Positions 7,200 through 12,702 of a DNA stretch of 64,000 bases are shown piece after piece. The DNA comes from Geothrix sp. 21YS21S-2 (lineage in GTDB: Bacteria; Acidobacteriota; Holophagae; Holophagales; Holophagaceae), in NCBI RefSeq assembly GCF_030846775.1, contig NZ_CP132910.1:1894001-1958000 (forward strand), written 5' to 3'. Under the pieces are notes generated by a model. That model did no database searches. It was not told the origin of the DNA and saw only the letters and a program-made list of their open reading frames with translations. Position 1 is the first letter of the stretch, and each line of letters opens with the position of its first letter. A program made the translations under genes and the position numbers.

Positions 7200-8645
7200 T
7201 CAATACTGCCCGTACCTCCCCCGCACCGACTCGAACAGCTTGGCCGAGTCGTAGCCGGTCCCGGCCTTGAACACCGTCTCCACCTTCTCGAGATCCTCGA
7301 TGCGGACGGCGGGGTTGCCCCGAACCACGATCAGGTCCGCGTCCATGCCGGGCGCCACGGAGCCGATGCGGTCCTGCCGGCCCAGGAAGACGGCGCCGTT
7401 GCGGGTGGCGACCTGGATGGCCTCCACGGGGGTGAAGCCGGCCTCGACCAGGAGCTCCACCTCGCGCCAGTCGCTGATGCCGGGGATGGTGCCGCCGTTG
7501 CCGGTGGGGTCGCAGCCGGCGATGAGCAGGCCTCCCGCCGCGGCGAAGGCGCGCTCCAGGGCCATGCCGCGCTTGAAGACGGCCAGGGGCGCCTCCGGGG
7601 CGCGGGCGGCGGTGCGGTTCCGGGCCAGGAGCCAGGCTTCGCGGGCCTGCGGGCTCAGGACCTCGAGGGCCAGGGGGCGCAGGGGGGGCCGGTTGGGGAT
7701 GCTGTGCTCGAAGACCGGGAGGGTGGAGGTGACCGCCACGTGGCCGGCCACCAGGGTCGCGATGAGGCGCCTGGCCTCGTCCCCGGAGGGGTCCATGGCC
7801 ATGAGGGTCGGGGTGCCGTTGGCGGGGGAGGCCTGGTCGGGGGTCTTCCCCGGGTCCAGCTGGGTGTTGACGAAGAAGCCGTGCTCCAGGTCGTCGATGT
7901 GCAGGGCTGCGGCCTCGGGGTAGGTCACGGAGTTGAGGTGGCCGGTGACCTTGAGGCCGCGCCTGTGGGCGGCCTCGATGGCCGCGCCCAGCTCCGCGCG
8001 GGTGATGTACATGTAGGCCTTGAAGGAGGTGGCGCCCTGGTCCGCCCAGTAGTCCACCATGCGCCGGGCCTCCTCGGGCCCCGAAAGCTGGTGCATCTGC
8101 ATGAAGGGGCTCCCGGCGCCCTCCAGGTACGGGGCCGTGACGGCGATGTGGGGGCCGGCCAGCCTGCCCTCGTCGATGAGGCGCTTGAGGTTCAGGTCGG
8201 CGTAGGGCTCGACGCTGCCTGCGGTGCGGATGGTGGTGACCCCCGCGGCCAGGTACAGGCGCGGAGAGGAGAACGTCATCTGCGGCACCAGGAGGGGCGA
8301 GTCGGCGGTGCCGTCGGGGCGCAGGTTGGGGCGGGCGATGTGGAACAGGTGGTCGTGCATGCCCACCAGCCCCGGCAGGACGGTGGCTCCGCGCAGGTCC
8401 ACCACCACCCGGCCGGGGGCGGGCTGGACGTCGGCCCCGGGCGTGATGCGGGCGATGCGGCCCCCTTCGATGACCAGGTTCCGGTCCTCCACGGCGGGGC
8501 CGCCCAGGCCGTCCACGATGCGCGCATGCGCGAGGACGATGCTGGGCGCGTCGTACTTCACGAAGGGCCGGACCTCGGGCCCCAGGGGGGCCGCGGCCCG
8601 GAGGGGGCAGAGGGCCAGCATCAGGATCAGCCGTGGGAGGATCAT
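7200..8645 (-). CDS. Exported amidohydrolase (imidazolonepropionase/prolidase-like)
   Basis: 481-aa amidohydrolase-superfamily enzyme with a signal peptide (MILPRLILMLALCPLRAAA). The beta1 motif is 'GMHDHLFH' (HxH). Later come 'SFKAYMYI' with a candidate carboxylated Lys, 'VTGHLNS' and 'LEHGFF' with metal His residues, and 'IAGCDPTG' with the catalytic Asp. The C-terminal 'GSVAPGMDADLIVVRGNPA' is the usual beta-sandwich closure. This matches the secreted amidohydrolases often annotated as imidazolonepropionase-like or Xaa-Pro dipeptidase-like enzymes. It should act in the periplasm or outside the cell on a cyclic amide or dipeptide. The gene is 32 bp downstream of the sigma-54 response regulator, so it may be the last gene of that unit. 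Confidence 0.85.
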   Translation of the reverse strand: MILPRLILMLALCPLRAAAPLGPEVRPFVKYDAPSIVLAHARIVDGLGGPAVEDRNLVIEGGRIARITPGADVQPAPGRVVVDLRGATVLPGLVGMHDHLFHIARPNLRPDGTADSPLLVPQMTFSSPRLYLAAGVTTIRTAGSVEPYADLNLKRLIDEGRLAGPHIAVTAPYLEGAGSPFMQMHQLSGPEEARRMVDYWADQGATSFKAYMYITRAELGAAIEAAHRRGLKVTGHLNSVTYPEAAALHIDDLEHGFFVNTQLDPGKTPDQASPANGTPTLMAMDPSGDEARRLIATLVAGHVAVTSTLPVFEHSIPNRPPLRPLALEVLSPQAREAWLLARNRTAARAPEAPLAVFKRGMALERAFAAAGGLLIAGCDPTGNGGTIPGISDWREVELLVEAGFTPVEAIQVATRNGAVFLGRQDRIGSVAPGMDADLIVVRGNPAVRIEDLEKVETVFKAGTGYDSAKLFESVRGRYGQY

Positions 8646-8677: not shown

Positions 8678-10018
<1,341 letters not shown>

Positions 10019-10024
10019 GGGGCC

Positions 10025-11020
10025 TCAGAGGTTGGGGAGGGTGAAGGCGATGCGAAGCGCGCCGCCGGGACCGGGAGCGGCGGAGAGGGTGCCCCCGTGG
10101 GCCTCCAGGATCCGCCGGGCAACGGGGAGGGCCAGGCGCCCCATGCCGGAGGCCCGGAAATGGAAGGGCTCGAAGATCCGCCCGGGGTCCAGGTTCCCGG
10201 GCTGGAGGCCGTCCACGTGGCCAGCCGCCGAGGGCCCCGCCTCCAGGACCACCGGCAGGGCCGGGCCCCCGCCCTGCCCCAGGGCCCAGCGCAAAAGGCA
10301 CACGAAGGCCTCCCGCAGGCGGGCTCCGTCGGCCAGGACCCGCACCGGCGGCCCCGCCCATTCCAGCCGGAGCTCCCTGGAGAGGTCCCGGGCATGGGGC
10401 TCGCAAGTGGCCACCGCCTCGCCCAGCACCTGCGGCAGGGAAAGGGGGACCGGTGCCTCCAGGCGGACCTCGCCGTAGGCGTTCAGCTCCTCGATGAACC
10501 CCGTGAGCTGCTCGAGGTTCCTGCGCAGGGCCCCGCCGTAGCGCCGGGCCTCCTCCCGGTCCGCGTAGCGCGCCTCGAAGGCGTCCAGGACGGCCGAGAA
10601 CCCGAAGGCCGCGTTGCGAAGCTCGTGGACCAGGCCGGGCACGAAGGAGGCTCCCGCGGGGCCACGGCCGCGGTCCCGCCGTTCCGTCCGCGCCCGGGCC
10701 CGGGCCGCCATTCCCTCCAGGAGCCGCGCGGCCTGCTCCACCCCTTCGCGGAGGCGGGGCCCCAGCGGCCCGTCCACCGAGAGCACGCCCCATGCCATGC
10801 GCCCGGGGCCCAGGAGCCGGCGGCCCTGGAGGCCCGGTCCGGGCTCCTCCCACGGATCCCCGGGGGCCGGCGCCGGCATCGCCTCCAACTCCAGGCGCAC
10901 CGGGGCCCCGCAGAAGGCCTCCACGGCCTCCAGCACCTGGTCCACCTCGACGGGATCGCAGAACCCCATCCTTCGGAGACGGTCCGCACGGACGGCAGGG
11001 GTGGCGGAGTTCGGGTCCAA
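10025..11020 (-). CDS. Soluble histidine kinase-like protein with degenerate ATP-binding boxes
   Basis: 331-aa protein without membrane segments; the TTG start is preceded by CGAGGTGTCCC. An N-terminal GAF-like region (about 1-110) precedes a DHp helix with the H box 'LVHELRN' (H132). The C-terminal half resembles a HATPase domain, ending in 'RILEAHGGTLSAAPGPGGALRIAFTLP'. The N box that normally reads NLLxNA is 'CLLRWAL' (C241, W245), so both conserved Asn are missing. The G1 region 'QPGNLDPGRIFEPF' keeps the F-box end but lacks the DxGxG core. It probably binds ATP poorly or not at all. It is next to an intact sigma-54 response regulator, so it may act as a phosphatase, scaffold or acceptor rather than a normal kinase. 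Confidence 0.8.
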   Translation of the reverse strand: MDPNSATPAVRADRLRRMGFCDPVEVDQVLEAVEAFCGAPVRLELEAMPAPAPGDPWEEPGPGLQGRRLLGPGRMAWGVLSVDGPLGPRLREGVEQAARLLEGMAARARARTERRDRGRGPAGASFVPGLVHELRNAAFGFSAVLDAFEARYADREEARRYGGALRRNLEQLTGFIEELNAYGEVRLEAPVPLSLPQVLGEAVATCEPHARDLSRELRLEWAGPPVRVLADGARLREAFVCLLRWALGQGGGPALPVVLEAGPSAAGHVDGLQPGNLDPGRIFEPFHFRASGMGRLALPVARRILEAHGGTLSAAPGPGGALRIAFTLPNL

Positions 11021-11090: not shown

Positions 11091-11789
11091 CTATTTCAGC
11101 TTTTCCAGCACGGAGTCGCTGCGGTGGGAGACGGACGTGAGGTTCTGGTTCACGTGGTTGATCTCCTGGGTGAGATTGCGCACCGCCTCCACCGACTTGC
11201 CCAGATGGTCGGCCACCACCGTGAACCCCCGGCCGTGGACCCCGGCCTTGGAGGCCTCGATGCTCGCGTTCAGGGCCAGCATCTGCATGTTGGACATGAT
11301 GGAGTTGATGCGGCTCACGATGCTGTTGCTGGCGTCCAGGCTGGAGGCGATGTCGTCCTTGATGGTGGAGACCACCTGGGAGATGTCCTCGCGGGTCTGG
11401 GCGGCGTTCTCGGCCAGGACTTCCACCATCATCCGGCTGGTGAGGGAGGTGAGGAACATGGTGGCCGTGCCGCGCAGCCGCGCGCGGATCCGGGCCTCCA
11501 GTTCGGCGTCCCCGCTGGAGTCGAAGAGGAAGTCGGGCAGGTCCCCGCGGGTTGCCTCCTCGTCGTCGTGGAAGACGCGGATGCCCCTCTGCCGGGCCTC
11601 GAGGATGGCCGGAGCGGAGGTGTTCGGGTCCACCACGAAGACCACCTTCCCCACCGAGCTGTTGCCGAAGAACTTCAGGAGGCCCAGGCCGCCCCGCCCG
11701 CCGCCGATGATCCCGATGGTGAAGACCTGCTTGCCGAACCATTCGCTCACGATGCGCACCTGTCTGATGGATATCCCCCATGGTCCCAC
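11091..11789 (-). CDS. Soluble mini-chemoreceptor with N-terminal Rossmann (NAD-binding-like) domain
   Basis: About 232 aa with no transmembrane helix. Residues 22-100 look like a dinucleotide-binding Rossmann unit: 'FTIGIIGGGRGGLGLLKFF' (glycine-rich loop after beta1) and 'KVVFVVDPN' (acidic residue at the end of beta2). From residue 108 a helical hairpin carries a recognisable methyl-accepting chemotaxis tip: 'QMLALNASIEASKAGVHGRGF' followed by 'VVADHLGKSVEAVRNL'. No HAMP domain or obvious long adaptation region is present, so only the tip of the signalling domain remains. It probably senses a nucleotide or redox cofactor in the cytosol and signals to CheA/CheW. The GTG at 11789 is not certain; a GTG a few codons downstream (before SEWFGK) has an AGGTG in front of it and is a good alternative. 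Confidence 0.75.
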   Translation of the reverse strand: MGPWGISIRQVRIVSEWFGKQVFTIGIIGGGRGGLGLLKFFGNSSVGKVVFVVDPNTSAPAILEARQRGIRVFHDDEEATRGDLPDFLFDSSGDAELEARIRARLRGTATMFLTSLTSRMMVEVLAENAAQTREDISQVVSTIKDDIASSLDASNSIVSRINSIMSNMQMLALNASIEASKAGVHGRGFTVVADHLGKSVEAVRNLTQEINHVNQNLTSVSHRSDSVLEKLK

Positions 11790-11865: not shown

Positions 11866-12228
11866 ATGGAGCCGGTCACGCTCACCGCTTCCCGGGGCCG
11901 GGTGGCCCTGAGGATGACCTGCGTGGCCATGGGCCGCGACTTGGCCGTGAGTCTTGCCGGCGGCGACCGGGAGCACATCGGCGCGGTGGCCCTGGGCCTG
12001 CCCAGGCCCAAGGGGGACGGGGCGACCACCTCGGTGCTGGCGGTGCTGGGGCACCGGGAGGACGACCTGGCACGGAGCCTCGCCACCCGCCTGGCGTCCC
12101 GCCTCGGCGTGACGGTGTGCGTGGCCTGCGGCATCCACGTGGACGGCATCAGCCGGGAGGAGCTGGCGGCCGTCCTGGAGCTGTCGGCGGAACTGGCCGA
12201 CCGCCTGGTCTCCCAGGTGGAAGGGTAG
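11866..12228 (+). CDS. LpdD-like prenylated-flavin chaperone domain protein
   Basis: 120-aa protein preceded by GGAGGA six bases before the ATG. Its pattern fits the small LpdD-like family associated with UbiD-type decarboxylases: 'RDLAVSLAGGDREHIGAVALG' in the first half, 'SVLAVLGHREDDLARSLA' in the middle and 'VCVACGIHVDGISREEL' near the end. Known members are subunit D of gallate-type decarboxylases, proposed to handle prenylated FMN. I see no ubiD or ubiX homologue in this window, so the partner enzyme must be elsewhere, or the protein has another role. The assignment rests on motif recall and is good but not certain. Confidence 0.65.
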   Translation: MEPVTLTASRGRVALRMTCVAMGRDLAVSLAGGDREHIGAVALGLPRPKGDGATTSVLAVLGHREDDLARSLATRLASRLGVTVCVACGIHVDGISREELAAVLELSAELADRLVSQVEG

Positions 12229-12291
12229 ACAACCGCCCCCATTGCCGGGAGGATGGACCCAACCGAAGTACCAGGCAAAGGGGAGCCTTCC

Positions 12292-12702
12292 ATGCGCATC
12301 CAGTGGGGCGAGCAGTTCGCCACCGGGCACACCCTGGTGGACCACCAGCATGTGGCCCTGTTCGACGCCATCAACGCGTTCGACCAGGCCCTGGAGGAGG
12401 GCCTGGCTCCCCAGCGGATGGACGAGATGCTGGCCTTCCTGGAGCGCTACGCCCGGGAGCACTTCGTCACCGAGGAGTTCCTGATGGTGCGCTCGGAGTT
12501 CCCCGACCGGCCCCTGCACCGGACCGAGCACGAGCGGCTCCTCCTGCGGGTCAAGTTCATCCGGGAACTGCGCGACCAGGATCCCTCCCTGGTGCCCCCG
12601 GAAGGGCTGGGCAAGTTCCTGGGGGACTGGCTCACGAACCACATCCTCACCTGGGACCTGGCGCTGTTCCGGTACCTGAAGGAACACCCGGTGGACGCCT
12701 AG
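12292..12702 (+). CDS. Bacteriohemerythrin
   Basis: 136-aa four-helix bundle with a di-iron oxygen-binding site. The ATG at 12292 was chosen because AAAGGGGAG lies just upstream and 'IQWGEQFATGH' is the usual N-terminus; an upstream in-frame ATG at 12253 would add 13 residues. Iron ligands are visible in order: His in 'VDHQHVALF', His and Glu in 'EHFVTEEFL', His in 'PLHRTEHERLL', and His/Asp in 'NHILTWDLALF'. It binds oxygen reversibly, for storage, delivery or sensing, in the cytosol. The gene follows the LpdD-like gene by 63 bp and overlaps the convergent HEAT-repeat gene by 4 bp. Confidence 0.9.
   Translation: MRIQWGEQFATGHTLVDHQHVALFDAINAFDQALEEGLAPQRMDEMLAFLERYAREHFVTEEFLMVRSEFPDRPLHRTEHERLLLRVKFIRELRDQDPSLVPPEGLGKFLGDWLTNHILTWDLALFRYLKEHPVDA

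Follow-up and report, generated by a model that had tools for sequence, protein, structure and literature searches.

The window, the whole 64,000-nucleotide stretch of the Geothrix sp. 21YS21S-2 genome analyzed here, carries a gene in which an N-terminal Rossmann domain is fused to a short chemoreceptor-like (MCP-like) helical hairpin. The locus comprises the following features:

8678-10018, minus strand: sigma-54 response regulator, recognized by Pfam and also matched close to the homologue of the fusion gene in L219 and L220
10025-11020, minus strand: soluble histidine-kinase-like gene downstream of the fusion gene, with weak Pfam matches to HATPase_c and HisKA, both below cut-off
11091-11750, minus strand: whole fusion gene, most likely 219 aa from a GTG start, from the ORF reading and the start residue shared by homologues
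11097-11378, minus strand: MCP-like helical hairpin of ~13-14 heptads in total, from Pfam MCPsignal and the model helices (to residue 167, and 173-217)
11223-11297, minus strand: hairpin tip, MSNMQMLALNASIEASKAGVHGRGF, the best-conserved part, delimited by residue comparison
11379-11447, minus strand: helix predicted to run unbroken from the Rossmann domain into the hairpin, as a single continuous helix over model residues 101-167
11448-11723, minus strand: N-terminal NAD-type Rossmann domain of five strands, from AlphaFold models, Foldseek and the profile search
11628-11630, minus strand: Asp ending strand 2 (D40, alignment numbering), invariant in 19/19 sequences and D in at least 90% of alignment A3
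11688-11705, minus strand: glycine-rich loop GGGRGG (GxGxxG), read from the sequence, its three G invariant in alignments A1, A2 and A3
11866-12228, plus strand: divergent gene resembling bacterial proteasome-assembling chaperones (PAC; PF21758, E 4.5e-33)
12253-12702, plus strand: hemerythrin-domain gene beside the PAC-like gene (PF01814, E 8.8e-10)

The mechanically called ORF (11091-11789, minus strand) encodes 232 aa, the size given in an earlier note on this DNA. That figure stands for the ORF; for the protein itself 219 aa is most likely, from the GTG at 11748-11750, since homologues begin at an equivalent GTG or ATG and are ~217-225 aa long. The nearest homologues open with V/M-S-x-W-x-G, and the longer start at 11789 is probably unused. 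The Rossmann glycine motif and the MCP tip named in the earlier note are both present at these coordinates, on the minus strand. A promoter and terminator scan detected none.

The full-length AlphaFold model (mean pLDDT 83) consists of a five-strand Rossmann domain, a helix over residues 101-167, a turn and a second helix over residues 173-217; modelled alone from 39 sequences, the N-terminal domain reached pLDDT 93.6 and pTM 0.86. Foldseek placed the domain among acetylating acetaldehyde dehydrogenases and Gfo/Idh/MocA enzymes, a group that includes several NAD-containing structures, and the TM values to NAD-binding domains among the best matches were mostly 0.62-0.69 (normalized by query). 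A homologue profile likewise matched acetaldehyde dehydrogenase (E 1e-8), Gfo/Idh/MocA (~1e-4) and Rex (0.0025) structures in the PDB. By Pfam, the N-terminal part of the window protein lies below every Rossmann cut-off (GFO_IDH_MocA, E 0.058); several kinase-linked relatives exceed the cut-offs of GFO_IDH_MocA, DapB_N or CoA_binding, and kinase-linked relatives also show weak matches to Rex models (NCBIfam). The module has no dedicated Pfam model, and its members score close to cut-off in several families that bind NAD or CoA.

The domain thus combines the marks of an NAD-type Rossmann fold: a predicted beta-alpha-beta arrangement, GxGxxG and an acidic residue ending strand 2, the position that binds the adenosine ribose in NAD enzymes. 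It begins ~10 residues from the N-terminus. The NAD-binding domains of acetylating acetaldehyde dehydrogenases and Gfo/Idh/MocA enzymes are its closest solved folds and profile matches, but the window protein has no catalytic domain. With Rex, an NADH/NAD+ sensor, it shares a Rossmann domain of the same general type, albeit at a weak profile match; however, Rex carries a DNA-binding winged helix, of which there is none ahead of this Rossmann domain, whereas the window protein carries an MCP hairpin. No PAS, GAF or HAMP domain was matched by Pfam in the window protein, and no membrane helix is apparent. The models, the invariant residues and the Pfam search therefore agree with the earlier description of a soluble protein that has a dinucleotide-type Rossmann fold, GxGxxG and an acidic residue after strand 2, and that lacks a membrane helix, HAMP, PAS or GAF. 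A fold without a dinucleotide pocket had been named there as the contrary outcome; the predicted fold is of dinucleotide-binding type.

In the C-terminal half, residues 126-229 (long-ORF numbering) match Pfam MCPsignal (PF00015) with E 1.2e-15 and a score of 58.3 bits, the cut-off being 34.6. The proposed direct fusion to a minimal MCP tip is confirmed, and the two-domain anatomy is firm. About 47 residues per helix flank the tip on either side, giving 13-14 heptads in all, and exactly 58 residues follow the tip Asn in 19/19 Holophagaceae proteins. The smallest MCP cytoplasmic length class listed is 24H (PMC2577667), and the hairpin is too short for any recognized class (24H or longer). The methylation motif [ASTG]2-x2-[EQ]2-x2-[ASTG]2 was found in 0/19 homologues and in most other tested MCPs of the genome. 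Because methylation sites and length class, two defining features, were both looked for and are both lacking, the protein is MCP-like and is not filed as a true MCP. Like soluble chemoreceptors (PF00015), it has a helical hairpin with an LxLNAxIEAxxAGxxGxGFxVVA tip and no membrane part; it differs in its ~13-14 heptads against a 24H minimum, its missing methylation motif, its divergent tip and its Rossmann input, where soluble chemoreceptors usually carry PAS, GAF, globin or hemerythrin domains.

The tip is the best-conserved region of the protein in an alignment of the window protein with 18 Holophagaceae homologues (n=19), and the core MCP residues L380, N381, E385, F396 and V398 (Tsr numbering) are kept in 19/19. 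Several other tip positions diverge from the genome's other MCPs (20 sequences, Tsr numbering), all 20 of which have Q374, T375, E402, R404 and L406. The Holophagaceae short form has S/N/Q/G374, M/L375, Q376, H/N/Q402, G/T/A/N/S404 and S/V406, and so lacks the QTN triad, E402, R404 and L406 typical of all or nearly all other MCPs of the genome. Across the wider class, residue 375 is M or L in 57/58 short proteins versus T in 31/32 long or own-genome MCPs, residue 406 is S, V or T in most short-class proteins, and residue 385 is Q instead of E in 34/36 of the Pseudomonadota/Bacillota set. These tip changes argue mildly against membership in ordinary arrays and are compatible with CheW binding. 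Three further candidate markers were dropped: K388 and a non-acidic residue 391, each of which occurs in some ordinary MCPs of the genome, and the E402 change as a general marker, which is kept only against own-genome MCPs because the comparison set had been chosen by a pattern spanning position 402.

Within the same taxonomic class, 15/93 genomes carry the gene, in 19 copies, every carrier belonging to Holophagaceae. The Rossmann and MCP halves are both in frame in 18/18 aligned homologues (~217-225 aa), which answers the earlier concern that the N-terminal part might be out of frame in relatives. The dN/dS values against the three nearest homologues are ~0.05, 0.13 and 0.26, each half being constrained in every pair, and indicate that the gene is under purifying selection. 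As 18 homologues keep both halves in frame at dN/dS 0.05-0.26, a chance fusion is excluded. Invariant positions (19/19) include the three G of GxGxxG, D40 and most of the tip.

Beyond this family, at least four bacterial phyla other than Acidobacteriota carry the same design, which is unnamed. A narrow profile returned only single cases outside Holophagaceae: L043 (Chloroflexi MAG), L190 (Desulfobacterota sample) and L242 (another Acidobacteriota family). The statement 'restricted to Holophagaceae' was an artefact of that profile and was withdrawn after searches with the broader profile A3. At an E threshold of 1e-9, the broader profile detected the Rossmann module in 59/200 Bacillota and 81/200 Pseudomonadota sampled genomes, the phylum labels being those of the genomes that served as sample centres. 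At most of the Bacillota loci examined, the product is a Rossmann-MCP protein 280-310 aa long that extends 86-98 residues beyond the tip Asn; in two short forms from Bacillota this distance is 61 and 66 residues. The Pseudomonadota sample yielded 34 short-form proteins in 33 genomes with exactly 58 residues beyond the tip Asn. The fusion itself is therefore not rare, and its novelty, implied by the earlier note, was overstated, since it recurs in Bacillota, Pseudomonadota and elsewhere. In the openly accessible literature, no account of chemoreceptors with a Rossmann input domain was found.

The Bacillota proteins (L282-L285, L288-L293; ~280-310 aa) share the domain order and an intact glycine loop with the window protein, but have a longer hairpin (~24 heptads) and ordinary tip residues at most positions. 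The Pseudomonadota short proteins (L299, L300 and L306-L338 except L309) share its architecture and hairpin length, but their tip is NELEVLAINAGIQASRAGEFGKGF and their glycine loop is often eroded (GADKDG, GGDRSK), with a hairpin nearly unchanged across ~33 genomes (L306-L338). In these loci, constraint appears strong on the output half and looser on the input half. A tblastn search of plasmids with the Pseudomonadota form returned no close homologue, the best named matches resembling ordinary MCPs at ~30% identity. In a tree of the Rossmann domain, most short forms are separated from the long forms, at a modest level of support (86/86); L038/L039 and L242 fall with the long group. L242 (G990) is a short Rossmann-MCP protein with a strongly altered tip, GDAF replacing GRGF, and its Rossmann domain groups with other lineages.

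Related Rossmann domains, whose output partners were identified by eye from sequence motifs, precede histidine kinases in Nitrospirota and Desulfobacterota, GAF histidine kinases (Pseudomonadota sample) and GGDEF domains, and sigma-54 activators in Acidobacteriota and Bacillota. A LuxR-type HTH protein carries a related module as well, and one related domain is nearly stand-alone (152 aa). A module found ahead of so many different outputs most plausibly serves as a general cytosolic input domain, a sensor whose output here would be the MCP hairpin. In L198 the LuxR-type HTH apparently lies N-terminal to the same Rossmann module.

The neighbourhood is shared in part within the genus. The PAC-like gene also lies near the Rossmann-MCP gene in four related loci of the genus, and the hemerythrin gene is matched in three. 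Sequence related to the histidine-kinase-like gene (10025-11020) is present in L220 and L221 and gave no match in L219 (G073), where the sigma-54 regulator directly follows the Rossmann-MCP gene. The kinase-like gene, which adjoins the sigma-54 regulator, has an altered N-box (LLRWAL) and is possibly a degenerate kinase. Neighbours differ in other Holophagaceae genera, five Holophagaceae loci having a divergent gene that, from its N-terminus, resembles tex. Some Pseudomonadota loci have an MsrB gene (L358) or a thioredoxin-like 2Fe-2S ferredoxin gene (L368) close by, a weak hint at a redox context. As to the cheA/cheW set suggested as a check, the genome holds several CheW/CheA loci elsewhere, but none was recognized beside the gene or its homologues in the Holophagaceae, Pseudomonadota and Bacillota loci inspected by gene comparison and from mechanical gene calls, few of them annotated by domain search.

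Together, these results point to a design that probably reports the metabolic state of the cell to a signalling system. The reading we favor, with confidence a little short of even, is a cytosolic MCP-like protein that couples NAD(H)-type sensing through a helix to a minimal hairpin with output to a CheW/CheA-type partner. We infer its ligand, dimer, helix coupling and partner. Like Rex and NAD-dependent oxidoreductases, the N-terminal domain would bind a dinucleotide, most probably NAD(H). Binding would alter the helix following strand 5 at the exit from the Rossmann domain, and this helix may continue unbroken into a dimeric four-helix bundle of minimal MCP hairpins. The tip of this bundle would be the output surface, through which the metabolic or redox state could be reported to the CheW/CheA-type partner. 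As there is no methylation motif, the input from the protein would be tonic and unadapted. An NAD(H)-type ligand is likely and our best guess from motif and fold, given GxGxxG and D40 in 19/19 sequences, the Rossmann model and the profile matches to NAD enzymes and Rex; for Pseudomonadota members with an eroded loop it is doubtful. Output via CheA is possible: the conserved tip with its kept MCP core residues and the several CheW/CheA loci of the genome speak for it, and a tip without the QTN triad, E402, R404 and L406 and the lack of a recognized che gene nearby speak against it.

If NAD(H) is bound, the protein would directly connect, at the molecular level, the redox state of the cytoplasm with an output of chemoreceptor type. 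In several phyla the same module stands ahead of kinases, sigma-54 activators and diguanylate cyclases, so that knowing its ligand would reveal what a large number of orphan sensors respond to. With its constant hairpin length and class-specific tip residues, the class is a natural test of the minimal chemoreceptor able to signal, and with only ~219 residues the protein should be easy to purify, crystallize and compare with known outputs.

A possible but doubtful alternative keeps the same sensor and has the short hairpin signal outside CheA arrays, to a kinase, a transcription regulator or itself, so that it would be MCP-like by descent only. Tip positions constant in CheA-coupled MCPs are altered throughout the short class (375, 406), E385 is replaced as described above, and the methylation motif is absent; in the genus a sigma-54 regulator lies nearby, with the weak kinase-like gene intervening in some species. 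There is also a precedent in the receptor-like protein Tls, which sequesters FlhDC rather than mediating chemotactic signalling (PMC12623472). However, N381, F396 and V398 of the hairpin core and loop are never replaced in either the Holophagaceae or the Pseudomonadota set, tips are ordinary in the sister proteins from Bacillota, and the kinase and regulator neighbourhood is confined to the genus. Along similar lines, we tentatively suggest that short Rossmann-MCP proteins could form a separate cross-phylum class of metabolite sensors, whose tip-only hairpin would have left CheA arrays and would signal through another partner or through a CheW-like adaptor of its own.

It is unlikely, though worth weighing, that the hairpin output is as above but the Rossmann domain responds to another ligand (CoA, acyl-CoA or a different nucleotide). 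CoA comes into question because two relatives (L124 and L195) exceed the Pfam CoA_binding cut-off and the nearest PDB relatives, the acetylating acetaldehyde dehydrogenases, use CoA as well as NAD; acyl-CoA synthetase genes also lie close to the gene in several Holophagaceae loci. Yet the NAD-typical acidic residue ending strand 2 is invariant, and the synthetase neighbour was discarded as a ligand hint, the genes of other genera being ~30-34% identical to that of the window and probably different paralogues. That the protein is a decoy or plug, sensing nothing and competing with real receptors for CheW or CheA, would fit a very short tip-only hairpin without an adaptation region but is highly improbable, given a Rossmann half under purifying selection and nucleotide-binding residues kept in 19/19 Holophagaceae members.

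One homologous locus, L228 (G078), carries a tandem pair of diverged Rossmann-MCP genes on the same strand (7950-8630 and 8704-9363), whose products could form mixed dimers.
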